Assembly: GCA_024643795.1 (NCBI GenBank)
Contig: JAHEMF010000001.1
Coordinates: forward strand, 62,001-126,000
DNA: 64,000 nt
Direction of reading: 5' to 3'
Source of the DNA: Bacteroidota bacterium
Lineage (GTDB): Bacteria > Bacteroidota > Bacteroidia > AKYH767-A > OLB10
Shown here: positions 31,519 through 40,086 of the stretch, piece by piece
Layout of the letters: each line of letters begins with the position of its first letter
How positions within the stretch are numbered: the first letter of the stretch is position 1
Made by a program: the position numbers and the translations under genes
Notes under the pieces: generated by a model
What the model was told of the DNA's origin: nothing
The model's input: the letters and a program-made list of their open reading frames with translations, nothing else
Database searches by the model: none

Positions 31519-32028
31519 TTATGAAAACAGGGCTTTGAGTTCAGTTGCTTCAGCGGGTTTCATTTTTCCTGCTAAAATTAAGCTCAGTTGTCTACGTCTC
31601 AAAGCACCGTCGAATCTTTGTTTTTCCTCATCAGATTCTGGAATTATTCCGGGAACATTTATCGGATTTCCCATTTGGTCCACAGCAACAAATGTGTAAA
31701 TTGCTTCATTACACTTACGTTTTTCACCAGTTGTATTATTCTCGACCCAAACATCAATAAACACTTCCATAGAAGAAGTAAAGGCTCTTGAAACTTTGGC
31801 CTGCAGGGTTACGATCTCTCCTAACCTGATAGGTTGATTAAATGAGACATTGTTCACTGAGGCTGTTACCACTACTCTGCTGCAATGCCTGTGAGCAGCC
31901 ACGGCGGCACAAATATCCATCCAATGGAGTAGTCTGCCTCCCATAAGGTTTCCCAGCACATTGGTATCGTTTGGGAGCACAATTTCTGTATTAATGGCTA
32001 CAGAATCACCCGGTTTCTTGGTTTTCAT
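31519..32028 (-). CDS. Hotdog-fold acyl-CoA thioesterase
   Basis: Hydrolyses acyl-CoA to free acid and CoA in the cytoplasm. It is 169 residues, one hotdog domain: VLPNDTNVLGNLMGGRLLHWMDICAAVAAHRH contains the Asn-x-x-Gly-G helix entry and catalytic Asp typical of YciA/BACH-type enzymes. VASVNNV-like and VSFNQPIRLGEIVTLQAKV strands follow. The C-terminal ~35 residues form a charged helix. Chain-length preference is unknown. Its -7 box ends only four bases before the ATG, so the mRNA may be leaderless. It diverges from the PNGase-F-like gene. Confidence 0.88.
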   Translation of the reverse strand: MKTKKPGDSVAINTEIVLPNDTNVLGNLMGGRLLHWMDICAAVAAHRHCSRVVVTASVNNVSFNQPIRLGEIVTLQAKVSRAFTSSMEVFIDVWVENNTTGEKRKCNEAIYTFVAVDQMGNPINVPGIIPESDEEKQRFDGALRRRQLSLILAGKMKPAEATELKALFS

Positions 32029-32032
32029 GCCC

Positions 32033-32040
32033 CAAATATA
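32033..32040 (-). promoter_or_regulatory. -7 promoter element abutting the thioesterase start
   Basis: TATATTTG on the minus strand, then GGGC, then ATG. It is an exact TAnnTTTG match. Start of transcription would fall at or next to the A of ATG. Confidence 0.5.
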
Positions 32041-32107
32041 CTACTGTTACCTCCTATTAGCCTCCTTTTTCTTAATTTCAGCAACTCAAAAGTCAACCAA
32101 TCTAACC

Positions 32108-34342
32108 ATGCAGAAATTATACACCCGATTCTCCATTTTAGCAGTGGCATTATTGTGCCTCCTCAGTAACTATTCAAAGGCCGCAGAAGGCGATACTACA
32201 AAGATCCGTGTACACGATGCAGTGCATATGGACTGGTACGGGCAATATCTCCAATGGGGTGTTTTTCCACAACCCGGAACTACCTTCAGAAGAATAAATC
32301 TTGACCTAACCATAGGATGTCCTCCAACAGGTTGCTCTGATTGGGATTATACCGTATTGGTTGAAGCAAGGCATAAGACCGGTCAGTTTGATTCAACCCT
32401 TACTCCTGCTCCGTTATATACTGTAAACGGAAACTCTCCTGATTCTATCTTTTCAAATCTGAACCAGGCGTACATTACATTCTATGATACTCTGAACATG
32501 ATCACCGACTCTTCTGTGGCTGGTCAGTTTTGGATCATGACTCACAATAACCCAAACGATCCGTTTGCAGTAAGTGACTCTGATTATGTTTATCCCGGCA
32601 ATTATTACAATTACTATTTTGATAATAGTGGAAATGTGATTGATTCCATTCTGGTTGGATATGATCAAACCTGGATCAACAGTGTAAATATGGTATATGT
32701 TGTATTTGAGATCGTTGAATTGCAAGAAATAGCCAGAGTAATAACACCTTACGGAGGATATTACGGACTTACATGGAAAAATACCTGGCATTTTGATATA
32801 ACTGATCTTGCACCACTGTTACAAGATAGTGTTGAAATTCGCGCATTTTATAGCGGATGGTCGGATGGATTTGCCATCACTTTGGATTTTGAGTTCATTG
32901 AAGGAACTCCACCAAGGACTCCCCTACAGATCAGGAATGTATACAAAGGAAGTTTTCCGTTTGGAAATGCAGCCAATCCTATTGAAAATTACCTGATACC
33001 TAAAAGTTTTGACATAGATTCCAGTGAGGTAATGTCAATGTTGAGAGTAATTCCGTCAGGACATGGCGCAGGTACTCAAAATTGCGCTGAATTTTGTGCA
33101 AAGAATTATAAGGTAAAGGTTGATGGAATTCAACAGTTTCAACAATTGGTATGGCGAACAGATTGCGGAATGAACCCGCTGATGCATCAGGCAGGCACAT
33201 GGATCTATGACAGAGCCAACTGGTGCCCTGGAGAAAAGGTCATAATCCGCGAACATGAACTAACTCCAGTGATTACACCGGGAACTACTGTAAGCTTGGA
33301 TCTGGACTTTGATACATACACTAATTCAAGTACCAATGGGGCAAGTTATATTCTTTCAACACAGTTGATCACTTATTCTGCACCTAACAAATTACTTGAC
33401 GCCAGTATAGAAGAGATCATCGCACCAAACTATGATATGAATTACTCCAGATTCAATCCTATCTGTAATAACCCTAAAGTGGTGATAAGAAATACTGGTT
33501 CTACCATATTGAATTCACTGGTGATCACTTATGGAATCAAAGGCGCTCCTCAATCAACATATACCTGGAATGGCAACCTGGCGTTCAATCAATATGAGGA
33601 AGTGCAGCTCGGTGGAATCAACTGGAGTAGTAGCACTAACACACCCGATGAATTTGAAGTTGTAATAAGTGATCCAAATGGCAATACAGATCAATATGCA
33701 TTTAATGACACTCTAAGATCTTACCTGAACTTCCCTCCCGAATTTCCATCAAGTTTTGTTTTGTTGGTTAAAACTAATAATGCCTATTGGGAGACTTCCT
33801 ACAACATCAAAGACGACATGGGAAATATCATTTTAATAAATCCGCCTCTAAGCGCCAACACATTCTATTATGATACCTTGAGCCTTACTCCCGGTTGTTA
33901 TGAATTCAATCTTAATGATTCGGGAAAGGACGGACTAAGTTTCTTTGCAAATAATGATGGAACTGGCTATGCAAGATTTCTAAAAGCATCAACCACCGGT
34001 GCTTTGAAATATTTAGAGGCTGATTTTGGAACTAGCCTATCTTTTAAATTTACTGTAGGTTACTTACTCAGTGAACCAGCTATTGAACTTGAACCGGCAT
34101 TGTTAGTATATCCAAATCCGGCTAGCGAATCATTCACTCTCGATCTCAACTTACCACAGAACGAAAATATTACGATCACCATAACTGATATGAGTGGTAA
34201 ACTTTTATTAAAAGAAGATTTCAAAAATGTAGGGCAAATTGTGAAGAAATTTACTTTGAACGATTCGCCAGCAGGACTCTACCTTGTAAGAGTGACCGGA
34301 GACTCCTTTAATCTGGTCAGAAAGCTGATGTGGAACAACTAA
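32108..34342 (+). CDS. Secreted PNGase-F-like N-glycanase-related protein with T9SS tail
   Basis: A 744-residue protein from the ATG giving MQKLYTRFS; the open frame extends 49 codons further but into the divergent thioesterase gene. Signal peptide to ~24, then a two-domain region resembling peptide-N-glycosidase F: HMDWYGQYLQWGVFPQPGTTFRRINLDLTIGCPPTGCSDWDY near the start, and CSDWDYT with paired Cys. An extra ~200-residue beta domain and a type A sorting domain follow (YPNPASESFTLDL, SPAGLYLVRVTG). PNGase F removes N-linked glycans from glycoproteins; whether the catalytic residues are kept was not established. It ends at a strong terminator. Confidence 0.75.
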   Translation: MQKLYTRFSILAVALLCLLSNYSKAAEGDTTKIRVHDAVHMDWYGQYLQWGVFPQPGTTFRRINLDLTIGCPPTGCSDWDYTVLVEARHKTGQFDSTLTPAPLYTVNGNSPDSIFSNLNQAYITFYDTLNMITDSSVAGQFWIMTHNNPNDPFAVSDSDYVYPGNYYNYYFDNSGNVIDSILVGYDQTWINSVNMVYVVFEIVELQEIARVITPYGGYYGLTWKNTWHFDITDLAPLLQDSVEIRAFYSGWSDGFAITLDFEFIEGTPPRTPLQIRNVYKGSFPFGNAANPIENYLIPKSFDIDSSEVMSMLRVIPSGHGAGTQNCAEFCAKNYKVKVDGIQQFQQLVWRTDCGMNPLMHQAGTWIYDRANWCPGEKVIIREHELTPVITPGTTVSLDLDFDTYTNSSTNGASYILSTQLITYSAPNKLLDASIEEIIAPNYDMNYSRFNPICNNPKVVIRNTGSTILNSLVITYGIKGAPQSTYTWNGNLAFNQYEEVQLGGINWSSSTNTPDEFEVVISDPNGNTDQYAFNDTLRSYLNFPPEFPSSFVLLVKTNNAYWETSYNIKDDMGNIILINPPLSANTFYYDTLSLTPGCYEFNLNDSGKDGLSFFANNDGTGYARFLKASTTGALKYLEADFGTSLSFKFTVGYLLSEPAIELEPALLVYPNPASESFTLDLNLPQNENITITITDMSGKLLLKEDFKNVGQIVKKFTLNDSPAGLYLVRVTGDSFNLVRKLMWNN

Positions 34343-37141: not shown

Positions 37142-38386
37142 TTACTCTTCCATATTAATAGAGTGGCCCATCTTATCCCTTTTTGTTTTCAGGTACAAAC
37201 GGTTGTGTTCATTTGACTTGATCTGTAAAGGAATATTCTCAACTATTTCCAAACCATAGCCTATCAACCCTGCTCTCTTTGTTGGATTATTTGTCATAAG
37301 TTTCATCTTGGTAACACCAAGATCTCTCAGTATCTGTGCACCTACCCCATAATCTCTCTCATCCATTTCAAATCCAAGTTCAAGGTTGGCTTCTACAGTA
37401 TCCCTCCCCATCTCTTGCAATTTATATGCTTTAAGTTTGTTTAGTAAGCCTATTCCCCTTCCTTCCTGGTTCATATAAACAATTACACCTTTGCCTTCCT
37501 CTTCTATCATCTCCATTGCCTTTTGTAACTGAGGCCCACAATCACACCTACAGGAGCCGAATATATCGCCGGTGAGGCACGAAGAGTGAACTCTTACAAG
37601 AACAGGTTCCTTTTTATCCCACTCCCCTTTTACTAGTGCTAAATGCTCCTGACCATTCGTTAATTGCTTATATGCAATAAGGTCAAAATCGCCGTGCGTA
37701 GTAGGCAACTTAATGTTCACTTCTTTTTCAATCAAACTTTCTGTTTTAAGGCGGTAAGAGATCAGATCTTCAATAGAAATGATTTTCAGATTAAATCTCT
37801 CAGCTATCTTCATCAGATCTGGCAGCCGCGCCATTGATCCATCTTCATTCATTATCTCAACTAAAACACCGGCATGTTCAAAACCTGCTAACCTTGAAAG
37901 GTCAACCGCCGCTTCAGTATGCCCAGCTCTTCTCAACACTCCTCCTTTTCTACTTCTTAATGGAAAAATATGTCCTGGACGCCCCAGATCCTCAGGTTTA
38001 GTGTCTTTATTGATCAAAGCATTAATAGTCTTTGACCGATCTGAGGCTGATATACCTGTTGTGCATCCATGTCCTAAAAGGTCTACCGAGATGGTAAATG
38101 GTGTTTCATGACTGCTTGTATTATTCTGAACCATCATTTCGAGCTTCAGCTCCTCACAACGTTCAGTGGTTATTGAAACACATATCAGTCCTCTTCCATG
38201 AGTTGCCATGAAGTTCACAACTTCTGGAGTTGCATTCCTTGCAGCAGTTATGAAGTCGCCTTCGTTTTCACGATCAGCGTCATCAACTACTATAATCACT
38301 TTACCAGCCTTAATATCTTCTAGTGCCTCTTCAATTTTATTAAGTACTAAAGGGCTACTATCTATAGGATTACCGAACGTTGTCAT
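37142..38386 (-). CDS. ribBA: Bifunctional 3,4-dihydroxy-2-butanone-4-phosphate synthase / GTP cyclohydrolase II
   Basis: Catalyses both opening steps of riboflavin synthesis. It is 414 residues. The N-terminal DHBP synthase half (~1-205) shows [38 protein letters not shown] and the closing domain. The C-terminal GTP cyclohydrolase II half carries [25 protein letters not shown] (zinc Cys residues), [15 protein letters not shown] and [10 protein letters not shown]. The ATG at 38386 is preferred over a TTG three codons upstream because TAATTTTG ends only six bases before that ATG. I see no FMN riboswitch upstream. It converges on the redoxin gene with a 6-base gap. Confidence 0.96.
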
Positions 38387-38392
38387 ATGCTG

Positions 38393-38400
38393 CAAAATTA
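38393..38400 (-). promoter_or_regulatory. -7 promoter element abutting ribBA
   Basis: TAATTTTGCAG on the minus strand, an exact TAnnTTTG match, is followed after six bases by ATG, so the transcript may lack a leader. Confidence 0.55.
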
Positions 38401-38649
38401 GGGATTAATGACCTTTAGTGTTATAAAGCGGTAAATTATTGGCGAAAAGAGAATGTTAGTTACGATTTCTTACAGAGTGTTTTACTTTACATTATTTCAT
38501 AATATACTGATATTAAGTATATTAATTAAAATAACCACACAAAAAATTACATACAGAACTATCTTTCTTACAAATGAGATTAATTGAACTTTTTGAATCA
38601 ATTGAAACCTAAAAACGACGTTAAATTGTATTCAGAAAAAGTTCTTTTA
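38401..38649. other. AT-rich gene-free stretch upstream of the hairpin array
   Basis: No open frame, RNA gene or clear promoter was found apart from the ribBA -7 box at its left edge. The sequence is AT-rich with short inverted repeats such as ATACTGATATTAAGTAT near 38503-38519. It may hold the promoter of the putative structured RNA to its right, but no exact TAnnTTTG is present on the plus strand. Confidence 0.4.
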
Positions 38650-38663
38650 ACAATCATAAAAAT

Positions 38664-38681
38664 CCAGCCCCGTAAGGCTGG
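38664..38681. repeat. CCGTAA hairpin, copy 1
   Basis: CCAGCC (38664-38669), loop CCGTAA, GGCTGG (38676-38681). This is the divergent copy: pairs 1 and 3 are C-G and A-T where the others have G-C and G-C, so pairing is kept. Confidence 0.85.
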
Positions 38682-38733
38682 TTCTCATAGCAGGGTTTGT
38701 TTGGGTTGACTATGGATGAGAACGGATGCAAAA

Positions 38734-38753
38734 GGCGGCCCCGTAAGGCCGCC
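38734..38753. repeat. CCGTAA hairpin, copy 2
   Basis: GGCGGCC, loop CCGTAA, GGCCGCC. The stem is extended beyond a 3-base AAA bulge by GATGCA (38725-38730) pairing with TGCATC (38754-38759). Confidence 0.9.
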
Positions 38754-38830
38754 TGCATCTGTGTAACCCTTTGAGAAATTTAACCGTAGAATGTCATGAT
38801 TTGGTTTTTGGTTAGTTTTTAGGTTGATTG

Positions 38831-38870
38831 TCAGAGGTGGGCGGCCCCGTAAGGCCGCGCCGCCATCTGA
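38831..38870. repeat. CCGTAA hairpin, copy 3 with long stem
   Basis: The core GCGGCC-CCGTAA-GGCCGC (38841-38858) is extended by GGTGG pairing with CCGCC (one wobble pair) and TCAGA with TCTGA, with single-base bulges at 38859 and 38865. About 16 pairs in all. Confidence 0.9.
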
Positions 38871-38891
38871 TCACTAAAGACGGAGAATCTA

Positions 38892-38919
38892 GGCGGCCCC
38901 GTAAGGCCGCCATTTTTTT
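38892..38919 (+). terminator. CCGTAA hairpin, copy 4, with T-run (terminator-like)
   Basis: GGCGGCC (38892-38898), loop CCGTAA, GGCCGCC (38905-38911), one A, then seven T on the plus strand. There is no upstream plus-strand gene for it to serve. On the minus strand no U-run follows the stem, so it is a poor terminator for the glycosyltransferase operon that stops at 38923. Confidence 0.65.
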
Positions 38920-38922
38920 ATT

Positions 38923-40086
38923 TTAAAGTGATTCAAAGATTTTCAACAACTCACCTCCTATTTTCCTAACGGAAAATTTATCATCAACAAATTTTCTACC
39001 ATTCTCCCCAAGCTCATCAGCAAATACATGATTGCCTAATAAATTAAGGATATGGGCAGCCAATTCCTGTGGATTATCTCCAACTAATATTTCACGACCC
39101 GACCGGGCTCCAAGTGGTATAAAGCTCATAGTTGTAGTTACACATGGGACTCTCATAGACATGGCTTCCAGTATTTTGTTCTGCAAGCCGGTACCCATTC
39201 TCATTGGTGCGATAAATATTTTGGAACATGCATAAACTGTTCTAATGTCATCTACCCATCCTGTAATTGTTACATTACCCCCATCCAAAGCTCTGACACT
39301 GGAAGATGGATTTGCTCCGGCAATTATCAATTGGATATCAGGAAACTTCGCCCAGACCAATGGCATAATTTCGTTTACTAAAAATTCAGCAGCATCAACA
39401 TTAGGTAAATAATTCATGTTACCAACAAAACATATACCTTTTTTATCAATAACATTAGATGATTGAAAGTAATCTGAATCAACAGCATTCGGCAGAATTA
39501 AAATGTGCCCTATATCATTATTGTCAAAGCTTGATCTATCCTGTTCACTTATGATCAAACTCACATCAAATTGCTTGATCATTTTTTTCTCGAATTCACG
39601 TACCAGATTAAGCTCTCTTTTGAATAAGGGTTTGAGTAAGATCGAAGACTTTTGAAGACGCTGAAGTGTACCTACTGCAAATGCGTCCTGAAAGTCGATC
39701 ACTTTTTTACCATTATATTCTCTTGAATAAAGTGCTGTCCTAATCAACTGACAATAAACAATATCAGGACGAATATCATTTATTTGACTTTGCATTTTCC
39801 TCTCAATTGCTTTTGAATAGAAGTATCCTACCTGCAAAGGCAATGATCTGAATAATGAAGTTATCAGATTCAATCCTATCTGAAATTTTGATAGTTTAAA
39901 TACATTTACAGATTTACAATGTTGTTGCAACAACTCCATTCCCTGAACAGACACATCGCTATCAGAAAGAGCGATCACGTGAAGTTCATGAACCTGAGAC
40001 AACATCTTGATATGCTGCATCGCTCTAAGCTTATCACCTTTTTCCAACGGGTATGGAAATCTGCTTAGAAGAAAAACTATTCTCAT
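38923..40086 (-). CDS. Glycosyltransferase family 4 (GT-B fold)
   Basis: A 387-residue cytoplasmic GT-B enzyme of the sugar-transferase type tied to exopolysaccharide operons. The N-terminal acceptor domain opens IVFLLSRFPYPLEKGDKLRA. The C-terminal nucleotide-sugar domain shows GNMNYLPNVDAAEFLV, VTITGWVDDIRTVYACSKIFIAPMRMGTGLQNKILEAMSM, and the Glu of the family's E-x7-E region. Sugar and acceptor are unknown. Its ATG overlaps the stop of the upstream glycosyltransferase by four bases. It is the last gene of the LptF/G-GT4-GT4 operon, so it likely builds an envelope glycan. Confidence 0.88.
   Translation of the reverse strand: MRIVFLLSRFPYPLEKGDKLRAMQHIKMLSQVHELHVIALSDSDVSVQGMELLQQHCKSVNVFKLSKFQIGLNLITSLFRSLPLQVGYFYSKAIERKMQSQINDIRPDIVYCQLIRTALYSREYNGKKVIDFQDAFAVGTLQRLQKSSILLKPLFKRELNLVREFEKKMIKQFDVSLIISEQDRSSFDNNDIGHILILPNAVDSDYFQSSNVIDKKGICFVGNMNYLPNVDAAEFLVNEIMPLVWAKFPDIQLIIAGANPSSSVRALDGGNVTITGWVDDIRTVYACSKIFIAPMRMGTGLQNKILEAMSMRVPCVTTTMSFIPLGARSGREILVGDNPQELAAHILNLLGNHVFADELGENGRKFVDDKFSVRKIGGELLKIFESL

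Follow-up and report, generated by a model that had tools for sequence, protein, structure and literature searches.

The closest described systems are the untranslated RNAs CsrB/CsrC and RsmX/Y/Z, which carry many short hairpins presenting one motif in loops of typically six bases, and several of which, otherwise little alike, occur in one genome. CsrB of E. coli has 22 GGA motifs and binds ~18 CsrA subunits (PMC7652899). Hairpins in pairs or in tandem, whose six-base loops are recognised by a protein, also occur in ANTAR-target RNAs and in ANTAR decoy sRNAs such as EutX/Rli55 (mechanism in PMC3369931). In ANTAR hexaloops, position 1 is A and position 4 is G. Repeat arrays in untranslated RNA are also known from ToxI of type III toxin-antitoxin systems and from CRISPR, and boxA leaders have been reported for some CRISPR arrays; short GC-rich intergenic palindromes are typical of REP/RAYT elements. 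The Bacteroidota are major environmental and gut bacteria whose RNA-based regulation is poorly understood. RRM proteins, e.g. RbpB, are known RNA-binding regulators in Bacteroides (PMC11697453), and candidate structured RNAs of the phylum (GUCCY-hairpin, Flavo-1, Bacteroidales-1 and others) have been listed by Weinberg et al. 2010 (PMC2864571).

The locus described here lies in a 64,000-nucleotide stretch of Bacteroidota DNA, the whole of which is called the window below. Four hairpins with the apex CCGTAA, every one of them on the plus strand, span positions 38664-38911. Hairpin 1 (38664-38681) closes the loop with the stem CCAGCC/GGCTGG and scores 29.3 bits with our covariance model. Hairpin 2 (38725-38759, 28.2 bits) has the inner stem GGCGGCC/GGCCGCC (38734-38753, loop included) within an outer stem GATGCA/TGCATC. 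Hairpin 3 (38832-38869, 25.9 bits) has the inner stem GCGGCC/GGCCGC (38841-38858, loop included) within an outer stem CAGAGGTG../CCATCTG, and is preceded by the linker GGTTAGTTTTTAGGTTGATTGTCAG, which is repeated in the family of arrays to which the window belongs. Hairpin 4 (38892-38911, 28.2 bits) is followed by seven T residues at 38913-38919. The resulting element (38892-38919) meets the criterion for an intrinsic terminator, a GC-rich stem followed by a U-tract, and is the last hairpin and the predicted terminator of the RNA; hairpins 2 and 3 are without a T-tract on the plus strand. Exact matches to CCCCGTAAGG are found only at these four sites within the window, and tolerating one mismatch raises their number to 6, against an expectation of 1.0.

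The array is not covered by any listed ORF of at least 80 aa. The array diverges from ribBA (37142-38395, minus strand; DHBP synthase and GTP cyclohydrolase II) and converges with a glycosyltransferase group 1 gene (38923-40086, minus strand) that is not conserved across the family. An earlier note, made from the sequence alone, had claimed four CCGTAA-loop hairpins, a first copy that differs by pairing-preserving changes on both sides of the stem, extra inverted repeats extending copies 2 and 3, seven T residues after copy 4 and the absence of a gene. All these claims held, and the array phenomenon proved larger than had been noted; only the start given for the element, 38650, should be shifted slightly upstream, so that the boxA-like motif at 38641-38651 is taken in.

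We determined how often the hairpin occurs in the genome from which the window was taken (2.88 Mb). The sequence GGCCCCGTAAGGCC occurs 3 times genome-wide, each time inside the array. A search with R1, a covariance model of the 20-base hairpin built from 72 hairpins, returned 5 strong copies, i.e. the four of the array and a solitary one, the remainder being near noise. Dispersed palindromic repeats, which the earlier note had kept as an alternative, are thus rejected, and REP-like elements are ruled out by the same search. The solitary hairpin (contig C89, 161056-161075; positions 1501-1520 of L177) consists of AAAGGCGCC and GGCGCCTTT enclosing CCGTAA, is followed by a T-run and sits between two minus-strand genes, one of them J-domain-like. 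Solitary CCGTAA copies in other genomes are mostly terminators; the C89 hairpin could be a one-hairpin relative of the array RNA, which we put forward only tentatively.

The constancy of the loop and the variability of the stems were assessed over related loci. In 49 arrays there are 185 strong hairpins when any loop of 4-8 bases is admitted; 170 of them have a six-base loop, which reads CCGTAA in 162, with CTGTAA as the chief variant. Since the arrays had been located by CCGTAA, this count shows that almost no other hairpins are interspersed. The stem covariation score was 0.856, compared with 0.220 for shuffled and at most 0.155 for slid alignments, and all 7 stem pairs vary on both sides. 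The rows behind that score had been chosen for pairing; an unbiased pairing test is provided by pairs 4-6, which lie outside the search pattern. Among 53 hairpins, these pairs were present in 98, 87 and 85%, respectively, versus 48, 57 and 46% after shuffling. It is therefore very likely that selection acts on the RNA structure of the array, as the earlier note had inferred, with the stem sequence free to change while pairing is kept. C-G closes the loop in 171 of 175 hairpins; A-U, U-A and G-C each occur as a single exception. An alternative register, in which the apex would close as a GTAA tetraloop of the GNRA type, is not excluded but is unneeded, since the exceptions closed by A-U, U-A or G-C fit a six-base loop only.

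Folding of region 38600-38925 was far better than that of shuffled sequences for the plus strand (z = -5.96) and for the minus strand (z = -6.32); because both strands fold well, folding energy cannot choose between them. The choice rests on two other statistics. A terminator-like hairpin with a T-tract follows 26 of 51 arrays; in the mirror orientation only 3 of 51 have one. A T-run stands directly after the last hairpin in 16 of 51 arrays versus after 5 of 190 inner hairpins (p = 2e-8); inner hairpins served as the reference in the latter count because the linkers are A-rich. Among in-stem mismatches, G-T outnumbers A-C by 30 to 14 (p = 1e-4 against base composition, which predicts the reverse), as would be expected if G-U pairs are tolerated in an RNA of the CCGUAA sense. 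Related sequences are not independent, so the p-values for the strand are guides only. An RNA of the minus strand, whose loop would be UUACGG and for which a UACG tetraloop is conceivable, is ruled out by the wobble and terminator statistics. The suggestion of the earlier note that a plus-strand RNA ends at copy 4 is supported by the wobble bias and by 3' terminators found in the CCGTAA sense only. We conclude that the array very likely encodes a structured noncoding RNA of the plus strand, its transcription being inferred in the absence of expression data.

The same data bear on two rival explanations. The first is a cluster of terminators or a protector of 3' ends, i.e. ordinary strong hairpins between convergent units. 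In its favour, hairpin 4 and its T7 make a good terminator, several lineages have the array 3' of a same-strand gene and solitary copies elsewhere are mostly terminators. Against it, inner hairpins hardly ever carry a T-run (5 of 190), neither termination nor protection needs one fixed loop throughout a phylum, and in the family of the window no same-strand gene precedes the array; we regard this explanation as very unlikely. The second is a DNA-level element, whose extruded hairpins would serve a DNA-binding or nicking protein, as in REP/RAYT, integron attC, an HUH origin or a centromere-like site. There is one main locus per genome, which would suit such an element, and HUH replication origins also combine a conserved apex with variable stems. 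However, the terminators and wobble pairs are specific to one strand, the hairpins are not dispersed and the locus is syntenic with ribBA. Neither the 50,697 phage nor the 72,556 plasmid records searched for a phage or plasmid origin gave a match, and 18 pattern matches in IMG/VR included none with a hairpin array. A DNA-level element can hardly be upheld on this evidence.

Distribution was studied at several taxonomic depths. The sequence GCCCCGTAAGGC is present in 38 of 61 relatives, mostly as 2-4 copies that share a strand and lie within a few hundred bases of each other, and its reversed control is nearly absent from the same 61 genomes. R1 matches were obtained in 34 of the 42 genomes of the order. 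At the level of the class the distribution is patchy: 35 of 149 genomes have any R1 match, and fewer have a real array. One genome of another Bacteroidota class (G193) carries arrays at two loci, L035 and L036. Three close copies of CCCGTAAG were looked for in 84,980 species genomes; the resulting list of carriers is incomplete, i.e. a lower bound, and includes at least Adhaeribacter aerolatus (L047), A. aquaticus (L085) and Chitinophagaceae bacterium IBVUCB1 (L053). Pattern matches in Streptomyces, Bifidobacterium, Clostridia and others were dismissed as chance or tandem repeats, their stem pairing being not above that of shuffled sequences. In the Anaerolineae MAG JAFGLD01 (L056, L080, L087 and L155), a 22-base satellite with TTTCCCGTAAGGAA units is present on several contigs; it may be an unrelated tandem repeat or CRISPR-like.

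Individual arrays comprise 2-12 hairpins on one strand, with a freely variable spacing of ~20 to 106 bases. Some genomes have more than one array with unrelated linkers (G018, contigs C12 and C34; G028, contigs C11 and C12; G038, at 2.319 and 2.422 Mb). Linkers are mostly A-rich outside the family of the window; many units within that family combine a GU-rich linker with GTCAG/CTGAC as the outer stem. The loop is the sole part common to all arrays. In G002 (contig C22; L026, 1498-1726), a 63-base unit with two hairpins is duplicated fourfold in tandem, which shows the way in which arrays expand. In RE-9nov16-37 (G033; L011/L101), the whole RNA gene is duplicated in tandem: one array follows another, and both have a terminator and a GGTTAGG-type leader of their own.

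In the family of the window the array diverges from ribBA, and adjacency to ribBA is preserved there and in part of a second family. Most members, the window included, have a convergent gene downstream, which differs between members; elsewhere in the family the downstream genes are, as we take them to be, fumarylacetoacetate-hydrolase-like, and in one genus rlmE-like, the next gene in that genus being on the same strand as the array. At the window, the alternative that the array is the 3' UTR of an operon fails on the orientation of both neighbours, ribBA being divergent and the glycosyltransferase gene convergent. In other lineages the array may closely follow a same-strand gene (L030, L034, L047 and L085), and for those arrays a 3'-UTR origin remains possible.

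A boxA-like motif, GTTCTTTTAAC, is located just upstream of the array (38641-38651, plus strand; score 9 of 11). The boxA of the 16S rRNA leader in the same genome is CGTTCTTTGAAG; the copy at the array is weaker and without the leading C. In 11 of the 17 arrays of the family, that of the window not being one of these 11, CGYTCT precedes the first hairpin; it occurs downstream in 2 and on the other strand in none of the 17. No enrichment of the boxA-like motif was detected over the whole array set; it is a feature of this family only, and boxA as a phylum-wide feature is unsupported. BoxA shields untranslated RNA from Rho termination, as is established for rRNA; since it does so, a boxA-like leader is consistent with a noncoding RNA. 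In the family of the window the gene order is that of a free-standing RNA gene.

How does this RNA compare with the known systems? Many similar hairpins in a predicted untranslated, terminator-ended RNA, whose transcription is inferred, is what defines the CsrB/RsmZ layout, and the array fits it. It differs in that its loops are CCGUAA without GGA (ANGGA), that none of the 42 genomes of the order has a match to CsrA (PF02599), control genomes being positive, and that it belongs to the phylum Bacteroidota. The array is thus CsrB-like in layout and not a member, both the loop and the protein test having failed. From ANTAR hexaloops it departs at two positions, the loop C1 C2 G3 U4 A5 A6 having C1 and U4. 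Unlike the repeats of ToxI and CRISPR, those of the array are non-identical, with the loop alone constant, and no toxin or cas gene follows it, its neighbours being ribBA and unrelated genes (judged from the neighbourhood only). REP/RAYT palindromes differ in being dispersed; the stems of the array hairpins differ from one another and the terminators are strand-specific. As to the Weinberg et al. motifs, no Rfam 15 family reaches its gathering threshold at the array: two tRNAs are the only such families in the window, and the best sub-threshold scores within the array are ~20 bits against cut-offs of 51-75. GUCCY-hairpin has no Rfam accession listed, and its name-giving sequence is unlike CCGUAA or UUACGG (a comparison by name only). 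No mention of CCCGUAAG or of such an array was found in the open literature searched, including the candidate list of PMC2864571; subscription papers and supplementary alignments were outside the scope of the search. The earlier note had held that hundreds of dispersed copies or a lack of covariation would refute it and had proposed an Rfam search: the motif is not dispersed, covariation is supported and the Rfam search gave no match.

A partner was sought among known RNA-binding regulators and among neighbouring genes. Like CsrA, Hfq is missing from all 42 genomes searched. ANTAR domains above the cut-off were detected in 0 of 42 genomes, with five partial sub-threshold matches; 14 control genomes were also silent, and the sensitivity of this search is therefore unshown. 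RRM proteins are absent from the genome of the window and from most of its array-bearing family. From their absence in the genomes searched, RRM, Hfq, CsrA and ANTAR are rejected or unlikely as partners. No gene family recurring beside the arrays was found; the largest shared neighbour cluster was an artefact, as it contains reverse-strand array ORFs.

We propose the following mechanism. Plus-strand transcription would start at a promoter, inferred and not located, between ribBA and hairpin 1, enter through the rRNA-like boxA motif and end at hairpin 4 with its U-tract. The four rigid stems would act as holders, each displaying a CCGUAA hexaloop, and recognition would concern the loop together with the C-G pair that usually closes it. 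Being multivalent, such an RNA would hold one trans-acting partner in many copies; this partner would most likely be an RNA-binding protein, titrated as CsrA is by CsrB. One RNA with several identical loops, and one genome with several such RNAs, are in keeping with this. The main argument for binding of the loop in trans, and for copy number as a factor that matters, is that arrays with unrelated linkers share the loop only. Multivalent binding in trans is inferred, and we consider it likely; that the CCGUAA loops of the RNA serve to titrate or hold a so far unidentified RNA-binding protein is a further inference, to which we assign a probability of about 0.55. Several findings count against it: no partner gene was found near the arrays, the distribution within the class is patchy, the boxA-like motif is limited to a family and there is no evidence for a transcript. 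A CsrB-like decoy is further countered by the fact that mRNAs with the same strong hairpin were not seen in the genome of the window, where only one solitary, terminator-like copy exists; any mRNA targets would thus have to be weaker sites.

The partner may conceivably be an RNA rather than a protein. In a base-pairing small RNA, the loops would be seeds whose pairing site, UUACGG(G), would lie in mRNAs or in some stable RNA. An invariant single-stranded loop on stable stems is a usual layout for a seed, and several loops could reach several mRNAs. On the other hand, a six-base seed kept over many families implies a universal target, and 16S rRNA is rejected as such, no UUACGG being present in the 16S rRNA genes of 12 relatives (several genes partial). 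Moreover, the order lacks Hfq, and the C-G closing pair seen in 171 of 175 hairpins would not be required by pairing alone. Base pairing is possible, if not favoured. Alternatively, the loops might gather many copies of one protein into a ribonucleoprotein, a scaffold or storage particle, without inhibiting it. The evidence for titration serves this explanation equally, and so does the lack of competing mRNA hairpins in the genome of the window, but there is no sign of a dedicated protein gene nearby, and hairpin number and spacing vary freely, unlike in an ordered scaffold. We consider a scaffold unlikely.

Titration of a protein remains our preferred reading. Should a protein indeed be the partner, this would make it a new regulator with sequence-specific hairpin binding and the array a second, independent case of CsrB-type titration. 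A bolder reading, in which Bacteroidota without CsrA and Hfq possess an undescribed system of post-transcriptional control, made up of one or more RNAs with many CCGUAA hexaloops and a dedicated protein that binds this loop, has in our view slightly less than an even chance of being correct. The loop, shown 2-12 times as the only constant part, offers direct bait for the partner and points to the six bases that matter.

Two further observations were made in the course of this work. The window encodes, at 31961-34342 on the plus strand, a secreted protein with a PNGase F C-terminal domain (PF09113) and a type IX secretion tail (PF18962), and a neighbouring protein carries a Por secretion tail. 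In two related species of one genus (G005 and G013; L219, 1500-1522, and L222, 124-146), the start codon of queA is overlapped by a weak CCGTAA hairpin that comes directly after a TATATTTG box; this could be a regulated mRNA, or it could be due to chance.
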